Of a stretch of 64,000 nucleotides of DNA, positions 28,131 through 63,710 are shown one piece after another. A program made the position numbers and the translations under genes. How positions within the stretch are numbered: position 1 is the stretch's first letter; each line of letters starts with the position of its first letter. Below the pieces are notes generated by a model. That model worked only from the letters and a program-made list of their open reading frames with translations. It ran no database searches and was not told where the DNA came from. The stretch is from Polytrichum commune. Its lineage: Eukaryota > Streptophyta > Polytrichopsida > Polytrichales > Polytrichaceae. The DNA is taken from contig OX485803.1 of assembly GCA_950295325.1 (NCBI GenBank), forward strand, positions 61,393,554-61,457,553. The letters run 5' to 3'.

Positions 28131-28523
28131 CTGCAATGTGGAAGTGTTAGAATACAAACATAAGGGAAATAGACAGGAGAGATGGAGTGGGAAAGAAATC
28201 AACCATGGCATCATGGTAGCTAGCTATTTAGGTAGTCATGTCTTTTTAGGTATGTATCCCTCCCATGAAGTGCTTAAGGGAGGTTCCTCTCGGCCGAGAG
28301 GAACCTCCCTTGAGCACTTCATGGGAGGGATCCCTTGAGAAATACATGGGAGGTTCCTCGCGGCCGCGAGGAACCTCCCATGATCACTGCAAGGGAGGCT
28401 CCCTTAAGAAATATATGGGAGGTTCCTCTCGGCCGAGAGGAACCTCCCTTGAGAACTACATGGGAGTGAGGGAGTTTGAAAGGAGGGAGTGAGGAAGTGC
28501 ATTGTATGAATATGCATACTTAC
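28131..28523 (-). other. Intron 1 of the outer giant gene, holding family A palindromes
   Basis: Donor AAA|GTAAGT and acceptor TTGCAG|AAT are both consensus and both phase 0, giving a 393-bp intron. Three long palindromes (below) occupy it. Intron 1 of the inner element's gene is filled with family B palindromes instead. Confidence 0.8.
28256..28445. repeat. Family A palindromes, intron cluster (3 copies)
   Basis: Cores at 28,281-28,306, 28,351-28,376 and 28,420-28,445: arms GGTTCCTC and GAGGAACC around TCGGCCGA or GCGGCCGC. The first extends to a near-perfect palindrome of about 76 bp (28,256-28,331) and the second to 38 bp (28,345-28,382, CATGGG arms). They could form strong hairpins in DNA or in the transcript. 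Confidence 0.95.
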
Positions 28524-29951
28524 TTTCCATGCCTCCATCATTTTGGGGTCGAGCGTTGCCTCAGCTTTGTTAACCCTTTGCTTTTGGGGCCTGCCTAGTT
28601 TCACCCACACTCTATGACAATACATAATATGGGTTGTCCAAGTAGGGGTGAACTTGTTAAATGAATTGGAGTTATTTAGGGTATAAGATAGGCGGACTGT
28701 CATGCTTGGATCCTCGCTCCAGACAATTGTACAAGGCCATGTCTTCAATTTATCTTTAAATGTTTGTTCTGTATCTTTGTGTCCTATAATTTCCCTTGAT
28801 GCAGCCACGCTGTGTTGACCGTTGATAATAAGAAAATTTCCATTCTTGATGTCGTCCCAAGTCATCTCTTCTCTCCATCTTTCACCCTTATTGAGCTTCG
28901 GCATTAGGCAAAGATTGTGATGAGGCCATGCCGATGGAGTCTGTATAAGGTAGTTCTTCATGAGTGCTACCCCGGCTTCATCCAGTGGGCGAGTAACCTG
29001 ATAAGATTTAGCTTGCATCATTTTCTTGATGTGGACATGGAAAACTTTCTCCACACCGAAAGGGTAAAGGTGTCCAAATAATTGGACAAATTTTTTCCTG
29101 TCCGCTGCAGCTTCCTCCAAACTTGGTTCCTCTCCATGCGCGATAACTCTCCCCTTCTCTGCTGCAATGAGCACTAGGGGAGTTTCATCTGTGTCATCCG
29201 TCGCCTTCATCTTCTTAGCCTTGGTCTTCCTGGGCTCATCAGTTGTCCTCTTCGTGGTCGGGGGTTTCCTTGGGCCCGTTGTCTCCTCGGGATTGTTGTC
29301 AAGAATTGGCGTTGGGTTGAGGGTCCTGGCCAACGGACCAATGTCACCTGAAACATTCTTAGACCTCTTAGAAGTCTCTCGTGTTCCTCCAGCTTCCTCT
29401 CCGGGTCTCTGTTTCTTTTGTGTCTTCTTATTTCCTCCATCATCATTCCTAGAAGCGACAAGAGTCTCCGCTTGTTTCTTCTTTTGCTTCTTTAGCGCCT
29501 CCTTCTCGGACGCCTCTCTTGCATTGATATCACCTATTGCTTCAAGTATAAAATTTATGGCCTTCTTGGAAATGCCAGAACCCATCACTCTCTCCATATT
29601 TTCTTTGTCCGCAGTAGGGAGCGTCGAGATTGATTGCGTGAACGACTCCATATGGAATCTGTGTCTCTTGCAATCGATGGACAAAATTCGTGTTTCAAGT
29701 CCTTCGACGACCGACACGTTTAGTTTGTCGCTATCACCGATAGCAGCCGAGGTAATTGCATTTCCCGGGTTTGGAATCCAGCTTTTGTCCACCCGGTACG
29801 CGAATGTTAATTTTAGAGGCGATTCATTATCTTTTCTATGTACTTGCAGCGACCAGTGTCGCAAGTGGGTGTCCCTTAATTCCCAGTGGACACCCTTCGG
29901 CCCCACTTGGATATCCCCAACAAGATCGGTCCATAAAACTTCTCTCTCCAT
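28524..29951 (-). CDS. Outer giant gene, exon 1: ParB/DGQHR-like N-terminal region
   Basis: An intact 476-codon exon. The ATG at 29,951 follows an acceptor-like GTGCAG, so an upstream untranslated exon is likely. It holds an N-terminal beta-rich part, a Lys/Arg-rich stretch with KKQKKKQ and KKTQKKQRP (probable nuclear signals), then a domain whose key block is NGNFLIINGQHSVAAS around residue 375, followed by W(P)CTIVWSEDP and a conserved Asn/Phe-rich segment ending in KLGRP. The inner copy has KGDFWLIDGQHSVEAS and VVWSDNE at matching places. A GQH(R/S)xxA block is the hallmark of ParB/DGQHR-type domains, which bind DNA or nucleotides. The assignment is by motif only. I infer a sequence-specific DNA-binding role. 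Confidence 0.7.
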
Positions 29952-30076
29952 GTCACCTGCACGAATCATTGAAATGGTTAGTGTGTGTGGACTGCATGAA
30001 AGAATGTGAAGTCTCAAGAGTGTGGTGTGAAAGAGAACCTCAAGAGTGGTGTGATAGTGTTTCTACATGCGAAGGG

Positions 30077-31059
30077 GAGGAGGATCCTCTCGCCCGCGAG
30101 GAACCACCTCCCCCGCTCACAGTGAGCCCTTGTGAGGTTATCAACCTCACAAAGCCAGGGCTCAGTGATGAGGGGGGGAGGAGGTTCCTCGCGGGCGAGA
30201 GGATCCTCCTCCGCCCCTCATCACTGAGCCCTTGTGAGGCAGGACTCAGTCATGAGCGGGGGAGGAGGTTCCTATCGCCCGCGAGGAACCTCCCCCCCTC
30301 ATCACTGACCCCTTGTGAGCGGTGACCCCTTGCTAAGGTATGGTGGTACCAACATTAGATATAATCAAACACTTGATATCTTATTTAGTGGTGTTTAGCG
30401 TTAGACCTCGGATGAAAGTGAAATAGATGACGGACATACCTATGGATGTATATCCTTTAAGGAACACTAACCAAATTTTGGATGAATAAAATCGGATGAG
30501 ATTGCAGGGGATGCAATGGAGTCTCATGGCACATCTAGGCATATGGTTAAATAAACCGCATGTCCTCCACAAGCACATCTATATAGTACAAGATGTGGTT
30601 AATTCTAAAATTAAATGACATCAAAAATTTAGAAATTGGAAACCTACATCACTAAAAATAAAAAACACAAACATTCGGCCGCAAGGCTTGACCTAAATAA
30701 CTTAGGCACGGTCAAGTTGAAGACCCTTGAGAGCCAGGGCTCAGTGATGAGGGGGGGGGGGAGGTTCCTCGCGGGCGAGAGGAACCTCCTCCCCCGCTCA
30801 TCACTGAGCCCTGGCTCACAAGGCGTCACTCATGAGGGGGGAGGAGGTTCCTCGCGGGCAAGAGGAACTTCCTCCCCCCCTCATGAGTGAGCCCTGGCTC
30901 ACAAGGCGTCACTCATGAGGGGGGAGGAGGTTCCTCGCGGGCGAGAGGAACCTCCTCCCCCCCTCATGAGTGACGCCTTGTGAGTCCTTGTGAGCCCTTG
31001 TGAGCCCTTGTGAGTGAGCCCTCGCCTGGGAAGAGGTTCCTCTCGACCAAGAGGAACCT
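30077..31059. repeat. Family A palindromes upstream of the outer giant gene (7 copies)
   Basis: Cores at about 30,081, 30,182, 30,266, 30,762, 30,845, 30,928 and 31,034. Arms are conserved while the centre varies (CGCCCG, CGGGCG, CGACCA and others). Several sit inside longer inverted repeats with GCTCAGTGATGAGG or GTCACTCATGAGG arms; the stem around 30,762 extends to about 80 bp. They lie just upstream of the leftward gene, so they occupy its promoter region. Confidence 0.95.
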
Positions 31060-31185
31060 CCTCCCCCAAAGCTACTTGTGTACGGATGGGAATTCCGTAC
31101 AATTCGGACCACTCATTACATTCATCGATTGATTTGATGTGATTCTATGTTTATGTTAATGTTTTACATTGGATTTAACAAGGGC

Positions 31186-31569
31186 ATGAACATAAGTATA
31201 AGCATGAGCATAAACACAAGCATGAGCATAAACATAAGCATGAGCATAAACATAACACATTCAATCAGATAACACATTCAAACACTCAGAGCACACAAGC
31301 TCTTATACAGATTGAATACAACCCCTAGGTACTCAAACACAACCAAAAAGCACATTCAAACCCTGCCTACATTCAACCAGAAAGAAAACATCACACATTC
31401 AAACACATTCAAACAAACTAAACCAGGTTCTATGAGTTTCAACACAAACACACACATTCAAACACATTCAAACAAACTAAACCAGGTTCTATGGGTTTCA
31501 ACACAAGCACACATTCAACACAAACACACACATTCAACACAAGCAGAATCAATGTAGGATTCACCACAA
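31186..31569. repeat. A/C-rich tandem repeats split by the inner insertion
   Basis: First (CATGAGCATAAACATAAG)-type units (31,186-31,260), then CACATTCAAACACATTCAAAC-type units to about 31,550. The same CACATTCAAA repeats resume at 48,686 on the other side of the inner element, as expected if one repeat tract was split by its insertion. Confidence 0.8.
31566..31569. repeat. Left target-site duplication (ACAA), inner element
   Basis: ACAA abuts the left inverted repeat and recurs at 48,682-48,685 directly after the right one. Confidence 0.8.
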
Positions 31570-31597
31570 AACACTATATTCGTTAAATTGAGACTTT
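31570..31597 (+). repeat. Left terminal inverted repeat, inner element
   Basis: Starts AACACTATATTCGTTAAATT and ends GAGACTTT; identical over 28 bp to the reverse complement of 48,654-48,681. TGAGACT at offset 19 recurs as TGAGACA exactly 19 bp further on (31,608), the same spacing as in the outer element. Confidence 0.95.
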
Positions 31598-31639
31598 TTG
31601 GGCATTTTGAGACATTCATAGAAATAAGAACAAGGATAA

Positions 31640-32130
31640 ATGGAACACATATTGATGAAAGTTGTAAGATGCGAACACTTTGAAGCGGGTGCTTAGACCA
31701 AGAACCCCATTAATAACTCATATTTGTGATGGTATAGGGTGGGCAATCGAAACCTTAGACCAAATTGAAGGGGACATCTTAAAACATTCATATTAATGCA
31801 CACAAAATATGAGAGCTTGTATGAATATGGTTTAGGTAGGGCAATCCAAACCATAGATCTTATTGAAGGGAAAATCTTAAAACATTCATATTAATGCACA
31901 CAAAATATGAGAGCTTGTATGAATATGGTTTAGGTAGGGCAATCCAAACCATAGATCTTATTGAAGGGAAAATCTTGAAACATTCATATTAATGCACACA
32001 AAATATGAGAGCTTGTAATGTATGGTTTAGGTAGGGCACTCCAAACCATAGATCTTATTGAAGGGGAAATCTTAAAACATTCATATTAATGCACACAATA
32101 AGGCACTCCAAACCTTAGACCATATTGAAG
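31640..32130. repeat. Left subterminal ~98-bp tandem repeat, inner element
   Basis: About four units carry AAAACATTCATATTAATGCA and GGTTTAGGTAGGGCAATCC followed by AAACC. The latter (31,831, 31,929, 32,026) aligns with the 20-bp family B palindrome at 14 of 18 defined positions, so these may be degenerate binding sites near the end of the element. Confidence 0.75.
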
Positions 32131-32282
32131 GCAAAATCATGTGACACTTATATTATTGCAAAAAAACAAAAAAAACAAAGTATGGCACGTAAAATGCATA
32201 GCATGCTAACACCACACATCCATTGGATAGTGCGACCCAAAATCATATTGCCTATGGTCCAAAACCCTACGCCTACTATGGC

Positions 32283-32600
32283 CTATCTAGCCTCGGAGAC
32301 TGCCTCTATCTCTTTTGCCTTTTTTTCTTTTGCTTCTTTTGTTTTTGCTTCTTTTTCTTTTGCTGCGGCTTCTTTTGCTCGCATTGCTTCAACATTCCTG
32401 AAAATCTCCGCCCCGCGACTATAGCCATTTTTGGGTTGACCGCCCTCTATAACACATTTTGGATTCCGTCGGCCGCCCGAATTATACAACAAAGAATTCG
32501 AATACGATGAAGTGGACTGTCTTGCATTTCTGGTCATGGAGTAGAAATGCTCCAACTCGACGGACACACTAGACCGCATAGGTTTACGGGTGGGAGCAAC
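32283..32600 (-). CDS. Inner giant gene, exon 6: C-terminal tail
   Basis: The exon starts after acceptor GTTGCAG, phase 0 with exon 5, and ends at a TAG. It encodes a Ser/Asn-rich segment, a YSRGAEIF block resembling the SRG repeat of the outer gene's exon 8, and a long Lys/Glu/Ala-rich charged helix (EKEAKTKEAKEKKAKE) likely to be a single helix or coiled coil. The frame is intact. Confidence 0.6.
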   Translation of the reverse strand, partial: VAPTRKPMRSSVSVELEHFYSMTRNARQSTSSYSNSLLYNSGGRRNPKCVIEGGQPKNGYSRGAEIFRNVEAMRAKEAAAKEKEAKTKEAKEKKAKEIEAVSEAR

Positions 32601-32731
32601 CTGCAACGCGTGAATGCAAGAACACACGTGTTAGTTTAGGGAGGAAGACCCAAACGTGTCACACGTTCATTTTTTAAGTGCTGGATGATTGTAATGCGCG
32701 GATAACCATGTTTGGGGGGGGGGGGGTTCAC

Positions 32732-33085
32732 CTTGTCACCGGGGGCGTTCCCGTCGGAGTCGGCGAGGAGGGGCAATGCGTCCCGCAAAGGAATAGGAAG
32801 GGTTCCACTCTTCGTTGGCCGAGCGTCCATCCGTTGCCGCCGTTGAGGTGTACTACTGCCGCCGGGCCGAGAGGGGGACGTCCGGACGCATTTGCGATTT
32901 ATGCCCTTGAGCGGCGACGGGGACGCAGATCGCCGGAAGATTTGCTTGGGTGGGGGGCTATCGACGACGCCGGCGTCAAGAGGCTCCTTGGAGTAGTCAA
33001 TGGTCGATGCGGCGTCGTAGACGGTCTCGTAGAAGAAGCTCCCCAAGTCTGACTCGCTGACGATGTCAATCGAGGGCTCCAAACG
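32732..33085 (-). CDS. Inner giant gene, exon 5
   Basis: A 118-codon exon between acceptor GCGCCAG and donor AAG|GTGAAC, phase 0 at both ends. It encodes an acidic start (IDIVSESDLGSFFYETV) and then a Pro/Ser/Arg-rich, probably disordered part with several SP dipeptides. I recognise no domain. A poly-G run lies just inside the following intron (near 32,714). Confidence 0.55.
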
Positions 33086-33187
33086 CTGGCGCAAAAAAGG
33101 AAACGAAACATAACCCAAGGGAGGAGGGTTTGATAGAGCGCGTGAAAATCAAGATACATATGAAGCATATATTACACAAAATGAAAG

Positions 33188-33246
33188 GGTGCGCGCGCGC
33201 GCCCACACACACACACATACACACATACATACACATACAAACACAC
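33188..33246. repeat. (GC)n/(AC)n microsatellite
   Basis: GCGCGCGCGC followed by ACACAC/ATACAC repeats, in or next to an intron of the inner giant gene. Alternating purine-pyrimidine DNA of this kind can adopt the Z form. Confidence 0.9.
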
Positions 33247-33258
33247 GTAGTGTCTCAA

Positions 33259-34067
33259 ATGAGCTTGTTAAATTTCGCGTGAGATAACAACTCTCTGTAC
33301 AAATGGTCTCGTGGATCCAAGTATATCTCGCCTATCGGATTGTTCCTAACAAAATTGTTTACGGGCAGTCCGCTTCCTCAGAGCGCCTGGAGGTATTTAC
33401 CAAGGTCTAACAAAAATCGGTCCCAGACCTTCTCGACCGTCCAGGTAGGGCAAACTATGAGGTTGGCCGTCGGGTTCAACATGTTCTTTGCGGCGCTGTC
33501 GTCCACCATGAGCGTGTTCTCGCGGGTGGGACGGACGTCGTAGGGGACGCCTATCAAGGACGGCCGCTGGTCCCAAAAAATGGGCTTCAAGACCTTGAGG
33601 TATTGGGGGGAAGCGGGGTTGTTTGGTTTTTTGACGACTTTGCCGTCCGGTGTGTACAATATTCTACAGGCTTCCTGTGCTAGGACCATGCAGGGGGGCT
33701 CGATGCCCTTGAAGATGAACTCCACGACGGCATTGGTGTTCTCGGCCGTCATGGAGCTCCAAACGACCACCCACCATCGTTGTTGGGCCATCTGGAGGAA
33801 GGTCCGAAGCCACGGGCGGAGGTGAACTAGCTTGCTCTTTATGAACGTGGGCGGGCCGTCGTAATTCGCGTCCTCGGGCTTGCAAAAGGGCACCGTGGGG
33901 GTCCTCGGGCAATGAACGCATTGGACGAGGACCCCGTTCAGGTCTAACACCAGGAATCGTTTCTTCGGCCGCGGGGGCGGGGCGGGTAAAATCGGGGGCG
34001 CCGCCGCGCTGCCCTCTCTGCTCCTTGGAGAAGAGCGTCGGGGAGCCGCTACGCTATGCTCCGAGCC
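33259..34067 (-). pseudogene. Inner giant gene, exon 4: FCP1-type HAD domain
   Basis: The exon begins after acceptor ATCCGCAG in phase 0. It encodes a Pro/Arg/Ala-rich lead, then an FCP1/NIF domain with motif I LVLDLNGVLVQC, motif II WVVVWSSMTAENTNAVVEFI, and motif III ENTLMVDDSAAKNMLNP. As in the outer copy, the second catalytic Asp of the DxDx(T/V) motif is Asn. A TGA at 33,378-33,380 interrupts the sequence, but the same frame stays open for about 40 more codons (NNFVRNNP, then SHAKFNK) and aligns with the outer copy (RDFVVRHRF, then QSNKFNG). The TGA is therefore probably a premature stop. The donor of this exon was not located. Confidence 0.75.
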
Positions 34068-34582
34068 CTGCGGATACGATCGAGAGAAAACGGTGGGCGA
34101 CTTATGTCATGCTATGTCCAAACGAAGCATTTAAAGAAACGAGTGTTCTCGGTGCAAACACAAAACCATTTGATTCATTTTTGGAGGGGGTGCAACAAGG
34201 GACACAAGAGAGGCAAGAGCATACAACATACATTCAAACACAGGATACAAGTATATAGGAGTAAAAAATGGTGATTATATTGTATACAATGCTCTATGTA
34301 CATCTTGATTGGGGGGAGCCGCGTTGAACGATGCGTTCAAACTAGCCTACTTCTACATCTAGCAAAAATTGAAGAGACGGGCCGCCGTGATGAAGACTTC
34401 GTCGCAAGCCGGGGGGTATGTGGACGAACGAATGGTCGGGGGGAAGTGGCGAAGGGCGCGAGTGCCGGGGGGGTGACGTGTGCGTGAGTTTAGGGTAGGT
34501 AGGGGACACGACCAAGGCAAGAAGTCAAAGACCCAGGGAGTTTGGGTCGACCGACCCAAACTGAGTGGGGTCAGTGCATTAC
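34068..34582 (-). other. Intron 3 of the inner giant gene
   Basis: Donor GAG|GTAATG and acceptor CCGCAG, phase 0. One family B palindrome (34,541-34,560, centre AC) lies 22 bp inside the donor. Confidence 0.65.
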
Positions 34583-36041
34583 CTCGCCTTGGTCGTGCCT
34601 CGACGACGTTGAGGCCGGCATCGCGTGCGTTGCCCCACCTCTGTCACCGCCGCCTCCGACGACGACGTCAGCCGCAACCTGCTCCTGCAAAGGCTGACTG
34701 TCAGGCCTTTGTCCCAACCCAACCTCCGCATGCGCATCATGCATTGGTTCATCGACTGGGTTAGGAATAGAGGTATCACCAGGCACTTGCGGGCCTTCAA
34801 CGTCTAACATGGGCTCGTCCACCGGGGTCTGGTCGGGGACGGGGTTTGGGTCGGCCGACCCAAACCCTGCAGGTTGGCGAGCGTCGCTCTGGGACGCTGC
34901 AACGTGGGCACTGTTTGGGTCGGACGACCCAAACGTGTGGGGGTCGTCCCGCTGGTGTTGTGGGGGCGAGAGGATGGGAGGCCGGAGCGGCGGGGGTGCC
35001 AATGAGCTGGAAGCTCCGGGGACGAGCCAAAGGTTGGGGTCGTCCACCTGCTGGACGGGCGGGCGGCTGCAGCAAGTGCGCGAAGCTGAAGGACTGCTGC
35101 GGCGCCGGCCACGGGCGGATATCCTGTGGAGGGAAGCCTGCGGGCAAGTGAGGGAATGAACTCGGGGGAGCCATCACCAATCCCTGCGCCAGCATGCCCT
35201 GGATCACTTGCGTGATCAGGTCCGCTTGGGACGGAGGTGGGGCCATCGCCCTTTGCCGCTCTTGCTCCAACAGGAGAGCCCTCAACTCCGCGACTTCGTT
35301 GCGGACCGAGGGCTCCTCGGCGGCGGCCTTTTGCAATCGGACGAGTTGCTCCTCGTCCCGGAGCATCTTCGCGTTGGCCTCCTCCACGGTGAGGACCTCG
35401 GGTTTCACCCTCACCATCCCGGCGAACGCTGTGGGGGAGGCAGGATCCGACCTCAGCCTCTTCGCGAGCTCCATGTCGTCCTCGTCCTCGGAGCTTATGG
35501 CGATCGTCTCCTCCACCGCATAATCGCTGTATAATTTCTTCCCCTTCAGCATTCGCCGCTCCCTGAAGGTGGCCGTCGCGTCCCTCGAATACATGTCCTT
35601 CGCGTCGGCCACCGTGAGGACGGGCACTAGCTTGCTCTGCGGCGTGGCAGCTCGCATGGCCTTCTTCCGCTGAGGGGCCTCGGATTCTTGAGTGAATCCT
35701 GTTGCCCCTTCCTCCACCTCCCCCTCCACTTTCTCTGCTTCCTCCTCATCCTCCTCTTCCTCCCCCTCCTCCGCAACCGCGCCACCTGCTCCCATAGACG
35801 GATTGCCCGGATGCAACCCGATGAGCGGCTCTGGCAATTGAACGGGGGCGCGCATGGCGAATTCACCCGGGTTGATTCGCCTCGCCATATCCAAAGGATT
35901 CTCGCCCCCCTCGACGATCTCTTCGACGTAGGATCCGGGTATCCAGTCAAGGATGTCCATTCTCTTCGCTAGCGCCTTCTGGGTCCTGTAGAATTGAACA
36001 TTGGTATCCTCCACATAGGAGTAGATGTTCAACCCAGACAT
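34583..36041 (-). pseudogene. Inner giant gene, exon 3: acidic and Pro-rich region (frameshift)
   Basis: Runs from acceptor TGTGCAG to donor GAG|GTAATG. The length leaves one surplus base, and the coding frame switches near 35,060-35,090, from one ending LLQPPARP to one reading VDDPNLWLVPGASSSLAPP. The start matches the outer exon 3; then come an acidic run (GEEEEDEEEAEKVEGEVEEG), a basic RKKAMR patch, an amphipathic helix (QADLITQVIQGMLAQGL) and a long Pro/Gln-rich part. Two family B palindromes lie inside the coding part (34,845 and 34,914) and are read in frame as FGS(A/S)DPN. The function is unknown, probably disordered interaction sequence. Confidence 0.65.
34845..34933. repeat. Family B palindromes inside coding sequence
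   Basis: Perfect 20-bp palindrome arms at 34,845-34,864 (centre GC) and 34,914-34,933 (centre GA). Both lie in exon 3 of the inner giant gene, in the same frame, so each adds FGSxDPN to the protein. Confidence 0.9.
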
Positions 36042-36282
36042 CTGCACAATCCAAATCAATAGTATTAGTATCACCAATGAAGAATAAGGAAAAATGACAC
36101 CCAAAAAAACAATAATAGTTAGTTTGGGTCGCTCGACCCAAACTGTGCATGCCCTAGTTTGGGTCGAGCGACCCAAACCAAGCATGCCCATAGTTTGGGT
36201 CGATCGACCCAAACTGTGCATGCCCTAGTTTGGGTCGCTCGACCCAAACCATGCATATACATCCACGAGGTTAGTTTCTTAC
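36042..36282 (-). other. Intron 2 of the inner giant gene, with four family B palindromes
   Basis: Donor ATG|GTAAGA, acceptor TGTGCAG|ATG, 241 bp, phase 0. Palindromes at 36,123, 36,158, 36,194 and 36,229 (centres CT, AG, AT, CT) are spaced 35-36 bp with GTGCATGCCCTAG-type spacers. Confidence 0.8.
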
Positions 36283-37613: not shown

Positions 37614-37930
37614 CTGTACATGAAGTCAAGAACATATGTTAGAGAACACATCATGAAAAAAATGGAACAGCAGTTTGGGTCGATCGACCCAAACTTTAAA
37701 TCTGATGAAGACTATAAGACAATCCAGCAGTTTGGGTTGATCGACCCAAACTTTAAATCTGATGAAGACTATAAGACAATCCAAGAGTTTGGGTCGATCG
37801 ACCCAAACTTTAAATCTGATGAAGACTATAAGACAATCCAAGAGTTTGGGTCGATCGACCCAAACTACAAAACTTGCGAAGAAAATAAAACAATACAAGA
37901 GTTTGGGTCGATCGACCCAAACTTACTCAC
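37614..37930 (-). other. Intron 1 of the inner giant gene, with a 57-bp palindrome array
   Basis: Donor GAG|GTGAGTAAG, acceptor TGTACAG|GAC, 317 bp, phase 0. Almost the whole intron is the array listed next. Confidence 0.8.
37674..37921. repeat. Family B palindrome array, exact 57-bp period (5 units)
   Basis: Palindromes start at 37,674, 37,731, 37,788, 37,845 and 37,902, all with AT centres; the second has one arm change (GGTTGA). The spacer between copies is nearly constant (TTAAATCTGATGAAGACTAT and so on). The last palindrome begins only a few bases from the splice donor. Confidence 0.97.
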
Positions 37931-39256: not shown

Positions 39257-39283
39257 CTGTAAGTCCAGAAACAAAATTGTTAG

Positions 39284-42260: not shown

Positions 42261-42264
42261 AGAT

Positions 42265-48830: not shown

Positions 48831-51800
48831 AGGGTTGAGGATTGTGGGAGACTTGGCTATGGAACTCAGCACCCCAACCTAGAGAGAAAAGGCGAACAAT
48901 CTGGATTAGAGAAAAGTCGAACTGGAGTGCGACCAGGTGTAGAGAAAAGTCGAACAATCTTGTTTAGGATGTACAATTCAATCTCAGAATCTGAGAGCGT
49001 GGAAGGTGTGAGTGGAACTTGGAAGGAAGAGAGGACAGGAAGACACAAATGAGGAGTCGCCCGACATTCGAATGGACGCCACCCGGGCGGGTACGGCTAC
49101 TGGCCGGAATCGATGGTTCAGATTAAGCCGTCATCATGGATGGCCGGGATTAACTCACCTTCCCATGATGACAAGTGTACCGACTAGTAACAACTGCCTA
49201 TGGGACATGTGTTGATTGAGTACCTTTTCCCCGGTTGCTCTTTCAACTAATTTTATTTTGGCCGTTGGATGCGTGTGTAAACCCTATGGCTCCATCTGCG
49301 ACATCTGATGTCAAGATGGGAATGAGATTACAACCTCTTTTCCGATGCGGTAATGAGAAACAATTGTCATAATTGAATCCATATCTTATATGTCAAATTA
49401 CAAAATTACATCATGGATCATATACATATTGGAATTATTTTATAAGCAACTAATTAAATACTAACACACACACACACGCATTAAGTACTACATATATGTG
49501 GATTTGTTAACATTTTCATGTAAGTTTTGACTTAATTATATGAAAAGATTGGATTGAAAACTCAAAAGATAACACTCACCATGAGAAAACGATTCGTATT
49601 ATTATAAATCAACGGTATTGTCAATTTGATTATCAAAACTTGTCTCAAAAGGTGTGTTAACATGTGCACAAAATATATACAATTTTGATAGAAGAATTCA
49701 ACATGTTGTTGATCATCATACACATTTGGAAGTTTGTTGAGAAGGGTTGATACCAATAGCGGAAGTGATGTGGTGGTCATATATGGGTCCATACCAATAT
49801 CGGAAGTGTTGTGGTTGTCATATATGAGTGTACAAAACACAATCACTATTCACTCCAATAGTGATCATGATTCACAAAATCTAATCTACGCACTCATGTA
49901 TATGTCATATTATGCGACGCGACTCACACAACCAATGATTAATTCAATCTTTGTCCTCGTTGAACCCTAACAATAAGCACTAATAATAATCACTAATAAC
50001 GTTTAAATTTTATTATATCAGTATAAAGATATAACACCGTGTAAATCCCAATAGTAAGTCACACAAATATCATATTTGGTCTAGTTGTTAAATGTTGCTG
50101 AAACCGAGATGTTTCTCATATGATCATCAAGTGTGTGGGGAGTTTCTTACATAGATTTGATTAATAGGTGTGAATACCATATGATAGTAGATCGTTCATT
50201 TCAAGCGAGGCATACCAAATATTCAATCACAAACATATACGAGTTAATGAGGCATTGTACTAATTTGTATTGTTAACTAATGTTTTTTTATGATGCATCA
50301 TGCAACATCAAGTGTCTTAATATGCCACTTGTCTTTATTTTCTTATATCATTATTGATTCCTTTAAAACTAGGACATAAAGTTCAATGATTGTAATTCTT
50401 AAACGTTCCCTATTGGCAAAATATTTAATACCTACATATGATATAGAGCATGGTAGAAGATACGTGTATTTTGTATTTAAAAGACACTCATACAGCAACA
50501 ATGCTCCTCAAAAATGATTTATTCATTTATTTTCTTTGTTGAGGTGCGATTACATAGTGACACGAAAGAAGACACCCATTTTGGCCGTTGGATGCGTGCT
50601 TCATAGCAAACTTAGGATGGTTAGCATATTTTGAGCACATAATCCTCATCTTTGCTAACACGTGTCTTCGTGCCGCCAATTCCAGGTCTCGACGTTACAC
50701 ACTACTCAAATATATAGGTGTCCAAATTATTGTTGTGGTTGATTTAGGCACATCTACCTTATATTATCAAGCTGGATAATATTGTATGAATAGTCAAGTA
50801 ACGGCCGAATGTCATGTGCGTCAAAGGTGGTGAGAGTCAGTGGCAACAAATATGGTTGTCCTAATAAGGATCAATTTCGTTTGGTAGTAAATACATTCTA
50901 TCCTTCCATGTGATAAACATCAACTCGGGCCTAATTCAGTTAATTTTTTTCATTAGACACCTACCATAGAGGGCGTTCTATTTCATCAAGTAATGCCATA
51001 ATGTACATAAACTAAAATTAATGTTACTTTACATAAAAAGAAGCACAAAATACAAATAATTAACCACATTAAGATTTGAGCAATACAATGAATGTGGCTT
51101 GCATTGATTTTCTATTGAAAAATAACTTCAAACAAATAGTAATGTAAATCATTATCATAGTAGTGGTAATGTTTCTTGCACACACTTGTATGTCAATCAC
51201 CTAATATACTAATTCATTTTGCTTCTAGTAATGGACCCCAAAAGTAGGGCGTGAATTTTTACTACCCAAGATGTGTTATTACACAATATTTCCAAGTGTT
51301 TCTTGACAACATCAATAAAATGGGGTCTCATGGTCACAACTAGTATTATCTTATAATACCCATTGTTGTTCATAAAAACAATTGAAGATGGGGAAAGATG
51401 TTATTTCATCACCCCTGGGCCAATAACTAACACATGACCCATTTCCATGTATTAAACATGTACTCAATACTAAAATTGTGGTTAGCAACACTCAAGGTTG
51501 ATTATGTTTTTAAGATGCACCCATGGCATTGTGGACCCATAACATTAGTGGAATCCGAGCCAATGATTTGTTGGACCGACTGTCACAGTGAATTTAGAAA
51601 GTGGGTGCGAACCTTCCATGATGGTGGGAGTGGCCGGTCTAATTTTTGGGCATAATCGGTCAACATCCCAATGTTTCCAAGTCCAGCCGGTTCCATAATG
51701 TGATTGTTTGGTTTTAGGGTTTAGGGTTTAGGGTTTGGCAAATACATGAATTTTAATTTTTAAAATAATAACCATAAAAACACCACGCAAATATATGACC

Positions 51801-54800
51801 CTATTACATTTAACCCTAAACCCTATTAGAATTAACATTATTTTACATTAATATTTGGCATCGCACCATGTACTGTTATTCCATTGGGTAATTCAAATGT
51901 ATTACTTATGAGTTCATAATCACTCATGTTGAAAAGGTTGTTTGGACGTTTAGGGCCTTCACTTATTTGTGTCACTGAATAGGTGTGAAGCTAAGAAAAA
52001 CCCACCGCCCCCCCCCCCCCCCATAGGTAGAAAGAGAGTGTGTAGAAAAGATTGGACTTATATGTGCTCAAATATGGACATTAGGTAGGTTTAGTACTTA
52101 AGACATATGTAGAGACTTTGTAAGCGCTTTGGCTTTTCAATAATTAAAGGTTGACCAAGTAATCATTGTGAAAGATTGACATGCAAATAGATAAATAGCA
52201 TCACCAACTTCTTATGCAAGCGAGCAAATGTAAATAGAGAGTCTCTTCACATGTAGGTGTTTACTGCCTTTTGGTGGGGAACTTTGTGACCGTGGCTTTA
52301 TGAATGGTTTTGTATCTTAGGTAGGGATTGATTAGATGGGACATTTGGGGAGAGGTCTTGGTGAGAGGTTATTAAGTGTGTTAATGAGGAGTTGGGTTGG
52401 GTGTGACTTCAACTTAGTGTTCTTGGGGGGGGGGGGGCGTGTGGCTTTTTGTGAGATGAAGATCGAGGGTTTGAAACCTTAATAGACGATAATGAGAAAC
52501 ATGATGACAAGAAAACACTATCCTTTACCATAAATTGGGCGTTCTTTGGGGGTAGTTGAGTTTGGGTGACCAACCTACAAGGGATGCTCTCTCCATCAGT
52601 CAATTGTAATGCAGCTTTCAAAGATGTTTAGTTTCTTTTGCTAGGGGTTTGTTAAATGAAATCAACTCATTGCCAAGCTCTTGGGTGGGCAAATAGTGTG
52701 AATTGAGAGACAACCACGATTGCATGTATTGTTGTAAGAGTTTGTAAGACTTTATCCTATGAATCATCATCCAAACACCGATTCAAAACCAAAACAACCT
52801 TAATTAATCATGTGAATGTCTTAGTGAAATTAATTTGTGACACCAAGATGATATCGGAATCACCTTTGAAGTCTTCCTTGAATATTTCATTGGCTTTATG
52901 TCTTATTTAAAATCCTAACTACACACCCAAGTGTCGTGTATTACAATGTAGCATGCAAGAGGAAGATAATTGTGAGCAAGTATGGAATGTAGAATATATA
53001 TTAAAAATGTTGAAACATTGGTGTTCATGCACTAAGGTTGATGAGGCTATTGTGGAAACCTCTAGCTTACTTAAAATTATCTAGGTGATGGATTCGAGCA
53101 TTAGAAGCTTGAGCAGGATAACAATTGCGAATCATGACCAAGCAATCTAAAGTTGTTGAAATTGGAGTTGAGGAAGGTGTTCGTCTAGGCTCTGGAATCA
53201 AAGATTCTCTACTTTCCAATTTGATTTTAAAGCAAGCAACTCTTACATTGTTCAATGTTGTGTAAGTGGATGGCGACACTAGCAAATTCTACATGGGTCA
53301 TTTGTCAATGAAAACGAAGTTTAATGCCAACATTTGTTGTGTCATGTTTTTAAAGTGGTCATGAATAAGATGAAATGTTGCCAAATTAGGTTATCATTAT
53401 AAAATACCCACTATGCAAGTGGTTGGCACCTCACAACCATATGCAACCTCTTAATTTGCCCACTTCACTTACAAAATCAAATGTGTCATAGGTTGGTGGA
53501 TAAACACTCCTAATTATGAAGGATGATAGGTGTAGTTTGTTTTTTGCAAAGGTGGCTAAATCAACATGTATTACTCACCCTTTCAATTAAAGCAACAATA
53601 CTGCCAATTCCAAGCCAAATATAAGTGTCCAATAGGAAGCTAACTTAAGTGGCCTCCTCTTACCTTAGCGTAAATATGAGCCCATTCTCCTAACGTAGAT
53701 AATGGGTGTCCATGATGTAAGGTGAGGTATCTACCCGTTTTTTTTTTGAAAGGTGGGCTCTATGTGGAAGTTTGAAGAGAGGGGTGGGGGCGTAGTTGAG
53801 GGTGTGTGGGTGGTATTGAGGTATTTTAACAGGGTTCTATGGTGGTTTGTCAATGGACTACTTTTAGTTTTATTTTGTATATGATTGAATAGGTGAGGTA
53901 TTTTATGGCAAGTTGGTATAAGGATTTCATTATTTTTTGGGTATGTTGAGGTTCTTGAGTTTTTCCATTGATGGCTCATGTATGGGGGCCTTTTACACCC
54001 ACCGTGATGGTTAGTAGGGGACTCAGGTTGATCACCTAGCACTTAGGACCCATGCGTTTAGAGCTTAATTAAAAGGGGAGAAGTTTGGTGCATGGTAGTA
54101 TATATACGTCATTTATTGATTTCAAGATACCGTATAGTTAGTTAGAAAAATTGTACTGTTGCATAAATTGAGGGATATGTTTGTTGAAAAAACCCCACCC
54201 CTGAAAACCTCATCAAAGTCATTCAAAATGCATAGTGCCATGCGAACGAGCATGATAAATACACAAAATGCAAAAGCCACTAAAATGCAGAGGCAAATAT
54301 CCTAGGGCTGACAAGATAAAAATGTGTCCTATAAAACCATCCATGATAGTGGATGAAGATGAACCATTTTCATTTGTCTATACCCTTGTACAAGGAACCA
54401 GTTGTCACATGTAGCTAGGTATAATTTCCCTCATTTTGTTTTTTCATGTGGAGAAGGCAAGGGGGGGGGGGGTCACTCCCATATTTTACAAAACTATGTG
54501 AGAACCATATGGAGTCCACTTTGAAGTTGCTACATACAAATTATAAAACCTATATTTGTAACAATGACCAAGTTATATATTGAACTTTGCAATACAAATA
54601 AATTAGGGTGGTTACAAATTGACCATGTTAGAGAATTTTCAAAACTAACATACCATAAGGTTAAGTAGGGTGGGGTGTTATATATATATATATAAAGGCC
54701 CACACACTTTGGGAGAGACTTTAATCCCATCATCCCAAATATTGAGACTAATTTTATTTATAACATTCAATATTTCATGCATAAAAGGAAACCCTTAGGG

Positions 54801-55416
54801 AAGGAGGAATGCCCTTCCCAAAATGCTAAAGAGGACTCATTTTCGCCCCATCTCTCTCAAGTGTAGTGTGGCTAAAAAGGGTGTGTGAACTCCTAGGGGT
54901 GTGGTAGTTTTGAGTGTGTTGTGATGGCCTGGTTAGGTTGTGATTACACAAGTGGTGTCGTGGCATGGCTAGGTTGTGAGTGGCTCTCTCTCTTTTTCTT
55001 TTGAAATGTTTTGAAGATTGCTTATAGAGTGTATGAATTTAGGGTTTAGGAACATGATGTGTGAGGAAGATACGTAGCACGCTAATGTCCAAGGGATTTT
55101 TGGGCATGATCGGTCAAAATGCTAGTGTTTGCAAGTCCAACCGGTTATTTCTCAAACTCAACTCTACAAGATCGGTAGCTTCAAAACATCAACGCCACCA
55201 AATGGCCTTTGACGTTATTTCACAAGATCGATAATTATGTTGCAGCGTTGAACTTCAAACATTTATTTCTCAAACTCAACATGTGCATTTGTAACTATTG
55301 GTCAGTTCTCCCGTATCATTTCAGCCGATCATGTGTGCGCTTCACTAAGGATAGATCTCTCTTCCCAATTGGATAGACGATGATATTTTGCAATTCTCCC
55401 ATATTTATTGGTGCTC
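48831..55416. other. Gene-free interior of the outer element
   Basis: AT-rich, no supportable gene. Holds a 41-bp direct repeat (49,750-49,831, ATACCAATA(G/T)CGGAAGTG units), a doubled TTTTGGCCGTTGGATGCGTG at about 49,256 and 50,579, a telomere-like tract (51,712-51,736), C and G runs near 52,010, 52,426 and 54,462, and a TA run at 54,679-54,695. Probably several old insertions. Confidence 0.5.
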
Positions 55417-55746
55417 ATGATAGTAGAAAATTATGTCCAAAAACACCGTAGCCAAAATCGGCTGAGATTCTTTTGACTAGCCTTATCTGCAGTTGCTAAA
55501 CAATTACATATATATTGTTTTACAACAACAATTTCATGACGTTTAGAGCGTGTAATATACCATTGGAAAGGTGTTTTCAAGACCTTTCCAACAATTTATT
55601 ACACAAATACAAATTACTTAAAATTTTGGTTGCTTAACCAATAAACAAATATGTAGTGTTTAAGCAACTGTTGATCACGCTGGTCAAGATAACCGCAACC
55701 AATTTTGGTTGCGGTTGTTTTTGACATAATTTTCTACTATGATGTG
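55417..55746. mobile_element. Foldback miniature element with TAGTAGAAAATTATGTC ends
   Basis: The two halves are inverted copies of about 160 bp. The ends share ATAGTAGAAAATTATGTC, and the centre is TTGGAAAGGT, a 9-base loop, then ACCTTTCCAA. A perfect 26-bp inner palindrome (AACCGCAACCAA arms, TT centre) lies at 55,691-55,716. No open frame. The target duplication is unclear. Confidence 0.8.
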
Positions 55747-58332
55747 TCTATTTGAAAGTAGTTTGGTGAAAAGATACGATGTTGTTTTGCTAGTTAGTTG
55801 TAGTAGCTATTGGGATGCTAGAGTCTTCTTGTTAAAGCAAAACCCCAGAGAAGGGCCCTAGAGTGCTCACTAATGTTTGAGCAGTGATTTCTCTCTATAA
55901 AATTAAAGTGGTAATAATATTAATATAATGGGTTGATAAATAGACTTGTGGAGCCACTTCACATGGGACGTCTACTAAATTTGTCTACGTCATGGTAGAA
56001 TTGAAGTTCATGAAATTGGTTTCAAAGATCCAAAAAGCTGCTAGAATTAATTTAAGGCCCCCTACCATGAAATCGATAGAACACTTTGCTAACGTTTATT
56101 AAGTCCATGAAGTAGCTTGGAACCTTCATGAAATTGAGTTTGTACTTCTACGAAGTCATCTTACTAGGAGTATGGTTATTTATCATTCTTGCGTCATCTG
56201 AGTCATCTGCCTCCGACAAAATTGAGGCACAGTTAGGAGGCACTGGCATTTTTGTCCATAAGGTACATACTAAGTCTTAAGTGGCACATTTTCCTAATTG
56301 GACACCTAATATATTTGATTGGACCAGGTATGCAGATCAATGAGGATCACAAAGCAAACATCATGAAGACACATGTTTAAAATACAATGGATCGCGTCTT
56401 TCTTCCAATATTAATAACTAATCTACACTTGCTAGTGAACACAGTTCGGAGGATTTGTATATACATTAATTTCCACACAATCCAACAAACATAGTTTGCT
56501 AAAATAGGTCATACTTTAATAGTTCGACATTTTAATTAGAAACGGAGTATTTGCTTCAATATAATGGAAACTTCGACATTTTAATTGGAAAGTTCGACAT
56601 TTCAATTAGAAACTAACGTTGGGGATATGACCCCACGTAACTTCTTGATGATTACATATATAAGATGATACAATGGTTTTGCTTACATAACATATACCTA
56701 ATCATCTTGTGCGATAGGTATTTATAATGTAGCCAGGGTAGCAAAGAAGAATCACAAGACCATCATGAAACTTGACTACACGTGACCATGCTAATTGGGC
56801 CTGCAAAGCCAGTATGTCATTAACTATAGCCCATAGAGGCTTCAAAGCCATGCAATGCGATGTGCACAAGTAGTTTGTTCTAACTTGGTGAAATTTTAAT
56901 ATATAACTAATAATTGATTCCTATGCCGCCGTTCTTCATGACTTCCCACCCATCCGCATGCAAAGGGTAATTGTGCACCTTCCTGGAACAACCTTAATAA
57001 TTCTCAGTGTAGCAATCTTAATAATTAAGCATGCAACACACACAAAGCACGGCAAATGGTTGTGGGCCCCATTAACTTCACTTAAGTGCCCAAATTTGTG
57101 GGTGCAAAGCCGTTCTTCTTTGATGCCCATCATCACCCCTTACCATTGGCTCTTTTTCACTATACACGTTTGAAATGCATGAATATGGACTCAAGTCTAT
57201 GGAGTAGGGTATTGTGCTAATTCAAGTAGTGGTAACACTTATCGATTCCACATAGGTTAGAAACTCGACCCCCTTTTGATGGGTGGCAACATCATCAAAG
57301 AGGCGCTAGACTAACGTATGCATGTGTTATTCAATAATTTCTCTTAATAGGACCCCCATAGTTGGTCGGTCCCTGGTTCAACGAGGGTCAAAGAACAAAT
57401 ACCATAAAGACATGTTTTAGGGGAAGTGGACTACATCTTCAAATTTGATCAAACTACTCCATGTTCAACAATGAACACATTTGAGAGGATCTATGTAGTG
57501 CCACCCTCTATAAATGTTACACCTATAAGTGTTAACCCTCTCTAAATGTTAACTTTCTTCTACTGCCCACATATTGCACACTATAAATGTTAAACGAGTC
57601 AACTATTAACAAAATAGTACTCCCTTTGTAAATTTGACTCTGCAAATGTTAATGAATGAAATACAACCACAATATGGTTTTCACCAAAGAATCATTGATT
57701 CATACTTCACCCGTGATTTGTAAACTTTATTGAATAAAGTATTGATTGGGTTTGTATACATTCATAAACTTAACATTTGTATATTGGTCAAAAAAGAAAT
57801 TTACTAATTTTCTAATTTTTAATTATTAGCACCTTTATAAATGTTAACTTTGATCTACTCCCGAGGGTTAACATCTACAGAGGGTAGACTGTACACTCTA
57901 AATTTCGTTGTATCATGCCGTTGGCAATCAAAGGAAGGTAATGGAGAATGTACATTATAAGTACTATCAACTAGGGAGCACATCAACTCGCCAAACGATC
58001 ATTCTCTACTACCACACCTCAAACCATGATATCTCCTACAAGAGAGGACCCCGTACAATAGGGAGGGAAGCTTCAAATATTTTAGTACCCAAACTTAGTC
58101 TCCCACCAAACCAAATTGACACTACTATATAAGGTCCATACCTCCAACCGTTTGTGGCTCTCACTCTTCAAGCATTTCCATATCTCATTGTTGCCATTCC
58201 ATGCGTTCAGAACCCACACATGCTGGTTTTAGCAGGTGCCGGCCCAAGTAGCTCATGCTTTGCCTGAGCCACTGCTCCCCGAAAAAATATGCCCTACGTG
58301 TAGTACGTACAATTCTAGGATGCAAGCGTGTA
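55747..58332. other. Gene-free interior of the outer element
   Basis: No gene is seen. It includes diverged copies of the dispersed repeat also found at 12.3-13.0 kb (near 56,340-56,420 and 57,385-57,500), and ATAAATGTTAAC-rich DNA at 57.5-57.9 kb. Confidence 0.5.
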
Positions 58333-58333
58333 G

Positions 58334-58351
58334 TCCGTACAATTGTACGGA
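58334..58351. repeat. Perfect 18-bp palindrome TCCGTACAATTGTACGGA
   Basis: Followed by CCAC. A partial relative, CCGTACAATTCGGACCAC, lies at 31,095-31,112 next to the other gene's palindromes, so this may be a further shared site of the outer element. Confidence 0.8.
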
Positions 58352-58363
58352 CCACTGCGATAG

Positions 58364-59128
58364 GGTGCCGAGGTTCCTCTCGGCCGAGAGGAACCTCCGT
58401 TGCCAAGGGCCAGCCTTGGATATCCAAGGTTCCTCTCGGCCGAGAGGAACCTAGAGGCCAGATTGTATGTGACATGGGCATTTCATGTGGGGAACATGAA
58501 GGACAACTTAGACCCTATCTCCAATGGAAATATTTTTTATAATTTGAACCTCGATCTTGACTACATCAAATGTCTTCCAATGCAGTTGTACAGGAGTGAA
58601 GTTACACTCGGAACTGTGATTTCAAATTCCTATATGGGATCAGACAGGTCAACTAATAGCTCATTCGGCTAATTTTGTGATGGAACACTTGAAGGAGAGT
58701 AACAAATAGATAACATGGAGGCATAGCAGATTGTGCTTGTATAGTTCACCTAATTGACTATCTTAATTTCCCAACCACGGGCTTGTGTAATTGCTGTGGG
58801 CCTATATTGGGAGAAAGGGAATATAGACTTTGACCTGTCATACGTTTTGCATCTCAACTCCAATTCTGGAAACTACAACTGACCTAGAACTTGAAGTGAT
58901 TGTCTCGCCGTATTGTATGGATAGAGGGTTTAGGGTTTTGTGGACAAGTATTATGTTTAGGGCCAGCCTTGGATATCCAAGGCTCCTCTCGGCCGAGAGG
59001 AACCTAGAGGATATCTAGGTTCCAAGGATATCTAGGCTCCAAAGAGGAACCTAGAGGCCAGATTCTGGATATCCAAGGCTGGCCCTTGGCAACGGAGGTT
59101 CCTCTCGGCCGAGAGGAACCTCGGCACC
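58364..59128. repeat. 765-bp inverted-repeat segment with family A palindromes
   Basis: The outer 63 bp of each end (58,364-58,426 and the reverse complement of 59,066-59,128) are identical and start GGTGCCG. Family A cores lie at 58,371, 58,427, 58,980 and 59,096, with TCGGCCGA centres. Internal GGATATCC and CTAGAGG blocks are repeated. No target duplication was found, so it may be a resident regulatory structure rather than an insertion. It lies 0.7-1.5 kb upstream of the outer DUF7869-type gene. Confidence 0.9.
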
Positions 59129-59590
59129 ATTTTAGGTGTCAGGGTCGTGTTAAATGGTGCCGACAAAAGATGTCTCGTTTAACATGACCTCAAAAGACAC
59201 CTCAAAAGACACGTTTAACATGTCCTCAAAAGACATCTAACCCTTCATGAAGGGAAGGCATGGTAAAATAAAGGCCATAATTATTCGAACATTAGTGAAA
59301 CGTGGCGGATGCAACTGGGTTATGTAATGGGTAAAATAAACACGGGTGGAGTTAGGTCTGATGCGTGTCAGGAGCAACACCCATAAATAAGAATGATTTT
59401 TTAAAATTTGTAGTCGAATCTTGGCAATTCGTTATGTTTAGTACTTCGAGTTAAACATGGTTTAGGGTTTAGGCTATTTTAGGCTATTTATTACCTAAGG
59501 TTGTTGATACGAGTGGATGATCTATCATGTATTAATTGGGTGGAGTTGGTTCTGATGGGTTGTAGGACCAACAAACACTCAGGGTAAAGC

Positions 59591-59616
59591 AGGTTCCACT
59601 CGGGCGAGTGGAACCT
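59591..59616. repeat. Variant family A palindrome
   Basis: Arms AGGTTCCACTCG and CGAGTGGAACCT around GG: 26 bp and perfectly symmetric outside the centre. Both arms have the same T-to-A/A-to-T change relative to other copies, as expected from compensatory change. It lies about 210 bp before the start of the DUF7869-type gene. Confidence 0.9.
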
Positions 59617-63660: not shown

Positions 63661-63710
63661 ACGTTGAATTTTGGTCAAACTTCACGTGTTTTGCAATTTT
63701 GGGACTCCCA

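Follow-up and report, generated by a model that had tools for sequence, protein, structure and literature searches.

In the bacterial ParB/parS, Noc and KorB systems, palindromic sites lie near genes, and in the bacterial ParB family a GERR motif binds CTP. Accessory proteins with ParB-like and DNA methyltransferase parts have reportedly been described for algal transposons as well, by Iyer and colleagues in 2011, and Sola1-type DNA transposons are marked by a 4-bp target site duplication (TSD). The element Sola1-1_Ec32 of Ectocarpus, as presented in the main text of its report, is a giant DNA transposon of 21.5 kb with a ParB-like and N4C/N6A methyltransferase-like gene that runs opposite to the transposase gene, and its authors suggest that the ParB-methyltransferase protein binds and modifies its own transposon (PMC12477816). 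A second point of reference is provided by the VANDAL elements of Arabidopsis and their anti-silencing VANC proteins (PMC10398659): VANDAL motifs are described as tandemly repeated in introns and upstream of genes, and the VANC21 motif as the 9-mer YAGTATTAY, which is arrayed in a single orientation (PMC5735166).

We analyzed a stretch of 64,000 nucleotides from the moss Polytrichum commune (the window), which holds two giant transposons, one inserted within the other (Table 1). The two elements have the terminus type and 4-bp duplications in common, and the insertion point of the inner element is vacant in another copy of the outer one (L051). The TSDs of three elements, ACAA, CCAT and TTTA, all have the 4-bp length of Sola1-type duplications; the giant elements of this genome measure 17.1, 22.6 and about 26 kb. 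Pfam searches of the window elements matched DUF7869 and NIF and found no Mutator family. Exons 2-3 of the outer giant gene are split into two open reading frames in different frames, which form a single frame in the A67 and A59 copies. The observed/expected ratio of CpG is 0.79 in the inner element versus 0.55 in the left flank; this contrast may be an effect of age, and we draw no conclusion from it.

Table 1. Features of the outer and inner element, in positions of the window.
Feature	Position	Strand	Remarks
Outer element, A95 class	20304..63738		inner element inserted within; TIRs AACACGATATTAAACATTATGGGACTTT / AACATGATATTAAACATTATGGGACTTT
TSD of outer element	20300-20303 and 63739-63742		CCAT
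Inner element, B class	31570..48681		17,112 bp; 28-bp perfect TIR AACACTATATTCGTTAAATTGAGACTTT; TSD ACAA
Outer giant gene, NIF/HAD phosphatase-like exon	23138..23986	-	PF03031
Outer giant gene, exons 2-3	26623..28223	-	DNA-methyltransferase-like
Outer giant gene, intron 1: family A array	28276..28448		3 perfect palindromes
Outer giant gene, exon 1	28527..29951	-	ParB-like part (INGQHS), preceded by variable N-terminal part and linker; fold predicted via inner homologue
Outer giant gene, upstream region: family A array	about 30080..31060		central 8 bases incompletely symmetric
Inner giant gene, NIF/HAD phosphatase-like exon	33378..34106	-	PF03031
Family B sites in or beside later exon of inner giant gene	34539..34934
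Family B array	36122..36249		after methyltransferase-like exon of inner giant gene, at start of next open frame
Inner giant gene, exon 2	36279..37484	-	methyltransferase-like; fold predicted via homologue
Inner giant gene, intron 1: family B array	37672..37923		57-bp unit
Inner giant gene, exon 1	37928..39256	-	with ParB-like part (IDGQHS)
Inner giant gene, upstream region: family B array	39282..39734
Inner DUF7869 gene, upstream region: family B array	43734..44875		79-bp unit
Inner DUF7869 gene	45060..47889	+	several open stretches; probable transposase
Outer DUF7869 gene, upstream region: family A array	58370..59616
Outer DUF7869 gene	59942..62898	+	probable transposase

According to the original prediction, each element has a palindrome family of its own, family A occurring in outer and family B in inner DNA only. 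A scan of the window for the family B pattern TTTGGGTCGNNCGACCCAAA at up to 3 mismatches yields 32 matches (22 exact), which are confined to 32222-44873 and hence to the inner element, versus a mean of 0.03 and a maximum of 2 in 100 shuffles; the match at 32222 is solitary and has 3 mismatches. For family A, 30 GGTTCCTC arms are observed versus 1.8 expected, and all nine complete 8+8+8 palindromes (28282, 28352, 28421, 30763, 30929, 31035, 58372, 58428 and 59097) lie in outer DNA, where longer or imperfect palindromes are also present. The predicted partition describes the full palindromes of the window, but not the single stray A arms (15769, 26046, 29125, 37004, 38718 and 61591), two of which lie in the inner element. 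Both elements do have sites in front of the giant gene and of the DUF7869 gene, as well as in intron 1 of the giant gene (taken as the stretch that separates the exon 1 and exon 2 homology blocks, with approximate splice sites). The predicted conservation of position is confirmed, but to say that sequence differs completely goes slightly too far: families A and B have TCG in common, and a CGNNCG centre is common to the classes (CG is part of the search rule, and an unrestricted scan agrees). The clusters 34539-34934 and 36122-36249, which overlap the open frame 34797-36224, exist in the inner element only and have no outer counterpart.

The stronger evidence for the proposed link between palindromes and a class-encoded reader comes from comparing the arrays of one element with each other. 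Across seven element sets (one element per class, A76 being composed of two copies, L046 for the DUF7869 array and L006 for the others), all 31 comparisons made between arrays at distances 2-9 from the dyad centre show agreement, although two of them, at distance 6, hinge on a 3:3 tie; at distances 15-25, only 46 of 205 letters agree. A letter was counted here if present in at least half of the half-sites, and since half suffices, the A67 intron array of L007, with three TCCACTCG and three TCCTCTCG, was scored as agreeing at distance 6. When the upstream and intron 1 sites of 34 loci are compared, with more than half required, agreement is 31 of 33 at distance 6 and complete at the remaining distances 2-9; past distance 15, it is 33 of 89 letters, which is above chance. 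In the A67 copies L008 and L032, the upstream array has TCCACTCG and intron 1 has TCCTCTCG, so that one position differs. A footprint common to the arrays of one element is therefore set in otherwise unrelated DNA. That the palindromes are RNA hairpins of 5' leaders and introns, or cruciforms, would suit arms of up to 102 bp (L001) and the placement of the arrays in regions expected to be transcribed as leaders and introns. Nevertheless, this is very unlikely: Apart from the A95 upstream sites, most dyads are perfect up to a centre of 0-2 bases, which leaves no room for a loop, the conserved part is fixed at 18-22 bp while the neighbouring DNA differs, and a hairpin has no need of class-specific letters. 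Hardly credible is an account without selection, by which tandem repetition, together with gene conversion between arrays, carried an arbitrary palindrome along each lineage. The arrays are indeed tandem repeats with changing numbers of units, but past about 13 bp from the centre, units taken from different arrays mostly show no relation, both palindrome arms change together, and 307 of 310 sites fall outside the nominal exon-1 span 1320-2600 (three fall inside; the exons of L018-L020 begin after the nominal 1320, at 1355-1455).

The sites accompany the element family throughout the genome. Among 37 copies, examined by way of the ParB-like exon, other copies turned out not to lack palindromes: 35 have upstream sites and 34 have both upstream and intron 1 sites, the exceptions being L016 (without sites), L031 (without upstream sites) and L035 (one site). 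Genome-wide, the B pattern is found 9731 times and the A pattern 104 times, the reversed controls 0 times, and the 50 listed A95 sites as well as the 50 listed A59 sites all have a match to the matching class within 20 kb. Comparing palindrome arms with ParB-like proteins over many members, as the original prediction had proposed, gave a rank correlation between protein and motif distances of 0.85 for 36 loci (L016 being omitted here and from the tree) and 0.56 within the A clade (n=22), and in neither case was a value as high reached in 2000 permutations. On the exon tree of 39 rows, which also includes L055, L056 and L059 as neighbours of B or C sites, the five core half-site types require a minimum of 4 changes, compared with a mean of 23.6 after shuffling; the core labels were assigned by hand, with the variable base of A95 merged (TCCTCNCG), and those of L031 and L035 are based on one or two sites. 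Such clustering is, however, also expected from vertical descent alone, which makes the footprint common to the arrays of one element the stronger evidence. Moreover, A95 and A76 have one core in common, so type and class do not correspond one to one. We also draw no conclusion about hypomethylation from the decay of CpG. Transitions in sites with up to 2 mismatches number 5 at 4 CpG positions versus 13 at 8 other C/G positions for B, and 2 at 4 versus 5 at 8 others for A59, so there is no excess; but the copies are young, and C-type sites have 16 at 8 positions.

A candidate for the protein that would read these sites is the product of the giant gene. Its ParB and methyltransferase domain names rest on predicted folds, because searches of the A, B and C ParB-like and exon 2-3 proteins against Pfam, PHROGs and PDB sequences found no such family; the best PHROG is a family of unknown function (E 0.0046), and two queries of viral contigs found no relatives. 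The model of the ParB-like exon, made for the inner homologue, has a mean pLDDT of 43 (about 60-70 in the domain). Foldseek returned 0 matches at E <= 0.001 and nothing convincing among the 50 rows listed, and the top five VIA rows for residues 261-405 of this low-confidence model are Noc, ParB, Noc, KorB and KorB (Z 5.9-4.3), the fifth being level with unrelated rows (3.9); a Z below 8 may reflect just a common structural arrangement. For the exon 2-3 model (mean pLDDT 64), each of the 50 listed rows (Z 8.8-7.6) is either a DNA N6A/N4C methyltransferase or an MT-A70 protein. In a ParB-methyltransferase accessory protein of this kind, intact DPPY and FxGxG catalytic motifs are expected; aligned by eye, the columns in question read DFRxIPG, plus FGGLK in the A clade, so the motifs may be degenerate.

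Further constraints come from elements of another kind, termed M, which have other transposase-like ORFs (named by eye; a Pfam family was not found for them), their own ParB-like and methyltransferase-like gene and their own palindromes. Three M copies contain B arrays alongside their own sites, and L057/L063 has B arrays at both genes. Family B, said to be specific to the inner element, is therefore so within the window but is not limited to this element type genome-wide, and the palindromes are not strictly tied to the proteins of one element: The tree speaks for a distribution of types that follows the encoded proteins, the M copies against it, and a strict private code is countered. At least seven clusters of B sites exist on C1, and three of those listed contain a B-class ParB exon (616 kb; L055, L056). 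In the sequence examined of L052, L053, L054/L061/L062 and L057/L063/L064, a B-class exon was not found; to judge by their sequence, these clusters look like M elements or fragments. Four of five C clusters, lone sites excluded, have a C-class exon, and L058 has none.

The M elements also bear on who reads the sites and to what effect. It is improbable that the DUF7869 protein, with its variable first exon, binds them as internal regulatory or transposition enhancer sites. Its gene, too, has sites upstream, and its first exon diverges like the ParB-like part, with identities of 87, 75 and 71% for A76, A67 and A59 compared with 84, 82 and 75%. On the other hand, the DUF7869 main exon is strongly conserved (91, 90 and 85%, versus 76, 67 and 59% for the ParB-like exon), the sites nearest the inner termini are 3.0 and 3.8 kb away (disregarding the solitary match at 32222), and M elements with other transposase-like ORFs still have a ParB-like gene and palindromes, in some cases B arrays. 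The ParB-like part is linked to a methyltransferase-like domain whose exon 3 changes faster (75, 63 and 55%). Rates of change therefore do not single out one domain as the reader, and the ParB-like domain, the original candidate, is a possible one. Equally doubtful is a giant protein acting as autorepressor or copy-number control in the manner of KorB, which would shut its own and the transposase promoter. The evidence for binding would be identical, both genes have sites upstream, and the putative fold matches include the repressor KorB; B arrays would, however, hardly be retained in other-kind elements, at both genes in L057/L063, if binding silenced them, and one A59 copy has 14 sites in succession, which likewise speaks against repression.

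We regard a class-encoded reader as the best account of the palindromes and the giant protein as the best candidate for it. Classes that differ in their sites are present side by side in the same genome, which makes it unlikely that one host factor reads the sites of every class. With somewhat better than even confidence, we propose that each transposon class encodes a dimeric DNA-binding protein for which the palindromes would be cis-acting recognition sites. The reader would most probably be the giant gene product with its ParB-like, DNA-methyltransferase-like and NIF/HAD phosphatase-like domains; its binding to the arrays before both genes and in introns would most likely keep promoters open or counter host silencing, like VANC, and reader and site would change together as classes diverge. 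The co-evolution of protein and sites that the original prediction had envisaged is, as a whole, partly supported. A more specific version is possible, though we hold it only tentatively: A bacterial-type ParB and an inactive methyltransferase may have become a class-specific palindrome reader with half-sites changing stepwise from TCCACTCG to TCCTCTCG or TTCACTCG, which would protect or activate its own class and would be exploited in trans by other-kind transposons that acquired another class's arrays. If this is true, the arrays offer candidate target sites for transposon ParB-methyltransferase proteins, which are absent from the main text of the algal report (PMC12477816), as well as a footprint with a natural series of specificity changes within one genome. 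Next to VANDAL/VANC, they would constitute a second such system, and the symmetry of its sites would be of practical help in binding assays and structural work. Because two kinds of transposon have sites in common, it could be tested whether one of them cheats on a public good supplied by the other.

Compared with bacterial ParB/parS, Noc and KorB, the moss elements have palindromic sites near genes and a tentatively predicted ParB-like fold, but GQHS replaces the GERR arginines, and a partition role is unexpected in a chromosome-borne transposon. VANC and Mutator-type transposases are probably other proteins than those of the moss elements; by analogy, the moss system may be said to work like a VANDAL, not to be one. 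With Sola1-1_Ec32, the moss elements have in common that a giant transposon carries, opposite to its transposase gene (in moss, the probable one), a gene with methyltransferase-like and, by tentative prediction in moss, ParB-like parts; they differ by the additional NIF/HAD domain, the seemingly degenerate methyltransferase motifs and the candidate palindrome arrays, the main text on Sola1-1_Ec32 containing neither 'palindrom' nor 'binding site' (PMC12477816). The VANDAL precedent is apt in anatomy: As far as the account of VANDAL goes, short motifs that are specific to a class form tandem arrays within introns and ahead of genes in both systems, and motif and protein change together, the reader being element-encoded in VANDAL and proposed to be so in moss, but the moss sites are dyads of 18-22 bp with a CGNNCG centre instead of a one-orientation 9-mer (PMC5735166).

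The window (C1:61393554-61457553, in a genome of 408 Mb with seven large contigs) contains two nested elements (see the table). The empty site of the inner element is visible in another outer-element copy (L051), and without this insertion the outer element amounts to about 26.3 kb; a relative on C3 spans 22,565 bp with the duplication TTTA. In both window elements two genes diverge: the giant gene runs on the minus strand, and on the plus strand lies a DUF7869 gene, the probable transposase. The outer copy looks decayed because exons 2-3 of its giant gene are split over two frames (26623-28223); they occupy a single frame in copies of the A-clade identity classes A67 and A59. Left of the outer element, at about 3400-4570, lie degenerate CACTA/EnSpm remnants (Transposase_21, DUF4218).

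Coordinates and features of the window elements and of the M elements or fragments
Feature	Position	Length	Characteristics
Inner element (class B)	31570-48681	17,112 bp	28-bp perfect terminal inverted repeat AACACTATATTCGTTAAATTGAGACTTT; 4-bp duplication ACAA
Outer element (class A95)	20304-63738		ends imperfect, same kind as those of the inner element; duplication CCAT
NIF-type phosphatase domain	23138-23986		DLNG at DxD position
NIF-type phosphatase domain	33378-34106		DLNG at DxD position
M, L057/L063/L064	C1:2151600-2166600
M, L054/L061/L062	C1:470300-482600
M, L052
M, L053
M, L065

According to the original prediction, each element carries its own palindrome family at matching places. Within the window this holds: all 32 family B palindromes with up to three mismatches lie in the inner element (shuffle mean 0.03) and all full family A palindromes (9/9) in outer DNA. 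Both families have sites in intron 1 of the giant gene as well as upstream of this gene and of the DUF7869 gene; two additional B clusters follow further along the inner giant gene.

Protein searches with exon 1, which encodes the ParB-like part, yielded at least 98 B-like (95 of 1091 candidates scored), at least 92 A-like (90 of 914) and at least 97 matches of the third class, C (97 of 1086). We examined 35 exon loci fetched across the identity classes together with the two window copies. In a scan demanding CG at the centre, palindromes, whose absence from family copies had been named as evidence against the prediction, were found upstream in 35 of these 37 copies and both upstream and in intron 1 in 34, compared with mean counts of 0 to 0.15 in 20 plain shuffles per locus; an unrestricted scan of the first 20 loci recovered the same families. 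For each of the first 50 of 104 A95 sites there is an A95 match no more than 20 kb away, and for each of the first 50 of 183 A59 sites an A59 ParB exon at no greater distance; such places account for at most about 0.14% of the genome. Genome-wide, C sites number 2909 (exact) and B sites 9731. Arrays expand and shrink, since one A59 copy has 14 regularly spaced sites upstream of the exon (C1:63200912-63201896) and another, L012, has six. Many copies in the B-94%, A59 and C-88% classes share identical query scores, which points to recent transposition bursts of giant elements. At C1:640864-646099 and locus L058 (C1:645900-648400), 26 exact C-type palindromes, with centres mostly GG or CC, cluster next to a fragment that is NIF/HAD-like (37% to its inner-element counterpart); the 2.5 kb fetched there contain no C-class ParB exon.

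Five half-site cores were distinguished, each with one free base between core and centre: TCCTCNCG in A95 and A76, TCCACTCG in A67 and loci L015 and L034, TTCACTCG in A59, TACGAACG in C, and TTGGGTCG in B. On the 39-row exon 1 tree they require 4 changes, the minimum possible (shuffled mean 23.6; 0/200 as low). Within the A clade, TCCACTCG extends across several branches and the other two cores occupy one branch each, as would result if a single change to TCCACTCG had given rise to either. The expected correlation between palindrome arms and ParB-like protein was indeed observed (protein against motif distance, 0.85 over 36 loci; 0.56 over the 22 A-clade loci; 0/2000 permutations as high), with common descent contributing to the tree fit and to both correlations.

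A better argument is the footprint shared within single elements, where the surroundings of the arrays are largely unrelated. In seven element sets, array consensuses agree in 31/31 comparisons at every distance from 2 to 9 from the dyad centre (two of the agreements at distance 6 depend on a tie), in 27/31 at distances 10-11, and in 46/205 letters at 15-25. Upstream and intron 1 arrays of 34 loci agree in 31/33 cases at distance 6, fully at the remaining distances 2-9, and in 33/89 letters at 15-25. Both misses (L008, L032) combine TCCTCTCG in the intron with TCCACTCG upstream, and in L007 three sites of either type stand in the intron, a pattern resembling a tolerant intermediate between A67 and A95/A76. 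Because both arms and separate arrays change together, something acting in trans is called for. As classes with different cores coexist in one genome, this factor should be class-encoded.

Two encoded proteins come into question, one rival reading being that the palindromes are transposase sites. In A76, A67 and A59, identity to A95 is 91/90/85% for the DUF7869 main exon and 87/75/71% for its first exon, versus 76/67/59% for giant-gene exon 1 and 75/63/55% for exon 3. Exon 1 itself is uneven: 75/67/52% in the N-terminal part, 63/39/33% in the linker and 84/82/75% in the ParB-like part. These rates favour the giant protein as the candidate reader, without singling out its ParB-like part, which is better conserved than exon 3. 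For residues 261-405 of the exon 1 model, the top structural matches are Noc, ParB, Noc, KorB and KorB (Z 5.9-4.3); the next, unrelated row has Z 3.9, tied with the fifth ParB-family row. Exons 2-3 matched exclusively DNA N6-adenine/N4-cytosine methyltransferases and MT-A70 proteins among the 50 matches listed (Z 8.8-7.6). No catalytic motif can be made out by eye (the columns read DFRxIPG, and in the A clade FGGLK), so this part may act as a reader rather than a writer. The subsequent exon is NIF/HAD phosphatase-like (PF03031). Such phosphatases usually carry a DxD motif, and its replacement by DLNG makes activity doubtful; the transposon may thus carry a pseudo-phosphatase belonging to the RNA polymerase II tail family.

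A reverse search from B sites led to a second kind of giant element, M. Its divergent ORFs are different and by eye transposase-like, with no Pfam family matched; opposite them lies one more ParB-like (WDGNHR, by eye) plus methyltransferase-like gene, whose ParB-like protein gave no match to the A, B and C proteins and whose methyltransferase-like part has DNA methyltransferase as best PHROG (E 5e-5). The M palindrome, TGTGCG-4-CGCACA (TGTGCGttaaCGCACA), differs from that of B. Exact CCTGTGCGTTAACGCACAGG occurs 490 times genome-wide; among the first 50, 45 have an M ParB match no further than 6 kb away and the other five have one at about 16 kb. B arrays are present in three M copies, namely L057/L063 itself, where they accompany both genes, L065 (97%) and L061 (83%), as well as in fragment L053. 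They were not found in L066 and L067 (82, 81%) nor in the six loci L068-L073 (76-41%), each examined over about 2.1 kb. Consequently, the confinement of family B to inner-element DNA applies to the window but not to the genome, and a strictly private code is contradicted. B arrays in M elements would be expected if the B reader were diffusible and its binding useful. In the 41-42% M branch (L070, L071, L072), the region upstream of the ParB exon has two short palindromes, GTGTCTCGGtcCCGAGACAC and GGGTTCGGgaCCGAACCC, that are perhaps further site types.

By analogy, the giant protein probably binds the arrays and thereby keeps promoters open or prevents silencing: As a dimer, it would occupy the arrays before both genes and in the introns, and bound arrays would keep element promoters accessible or block silencing in a VANC-like manner; besides transposase sites, the rival readings are an autorepressor, hairpins and mere repeat drift. 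The proposed VANDAL/VANC precedent fits in placement, as the VANDAL motifs at which VANC acts lie in upstream regions and introns (PMC5735166), where the arrays are likewise found here. The main text of PMC12477816, on an algal Sola1 element with a ParB-like and DNA methyltransferase accessory protein, does not mention palindromes, and in the literature surveyed, mostly by titles and abstract openings, cognate palindromes of elements like these were not reported. Compared with this known kind, the new parts are the site specificity, the footprint, and the cross-use between element kinds.
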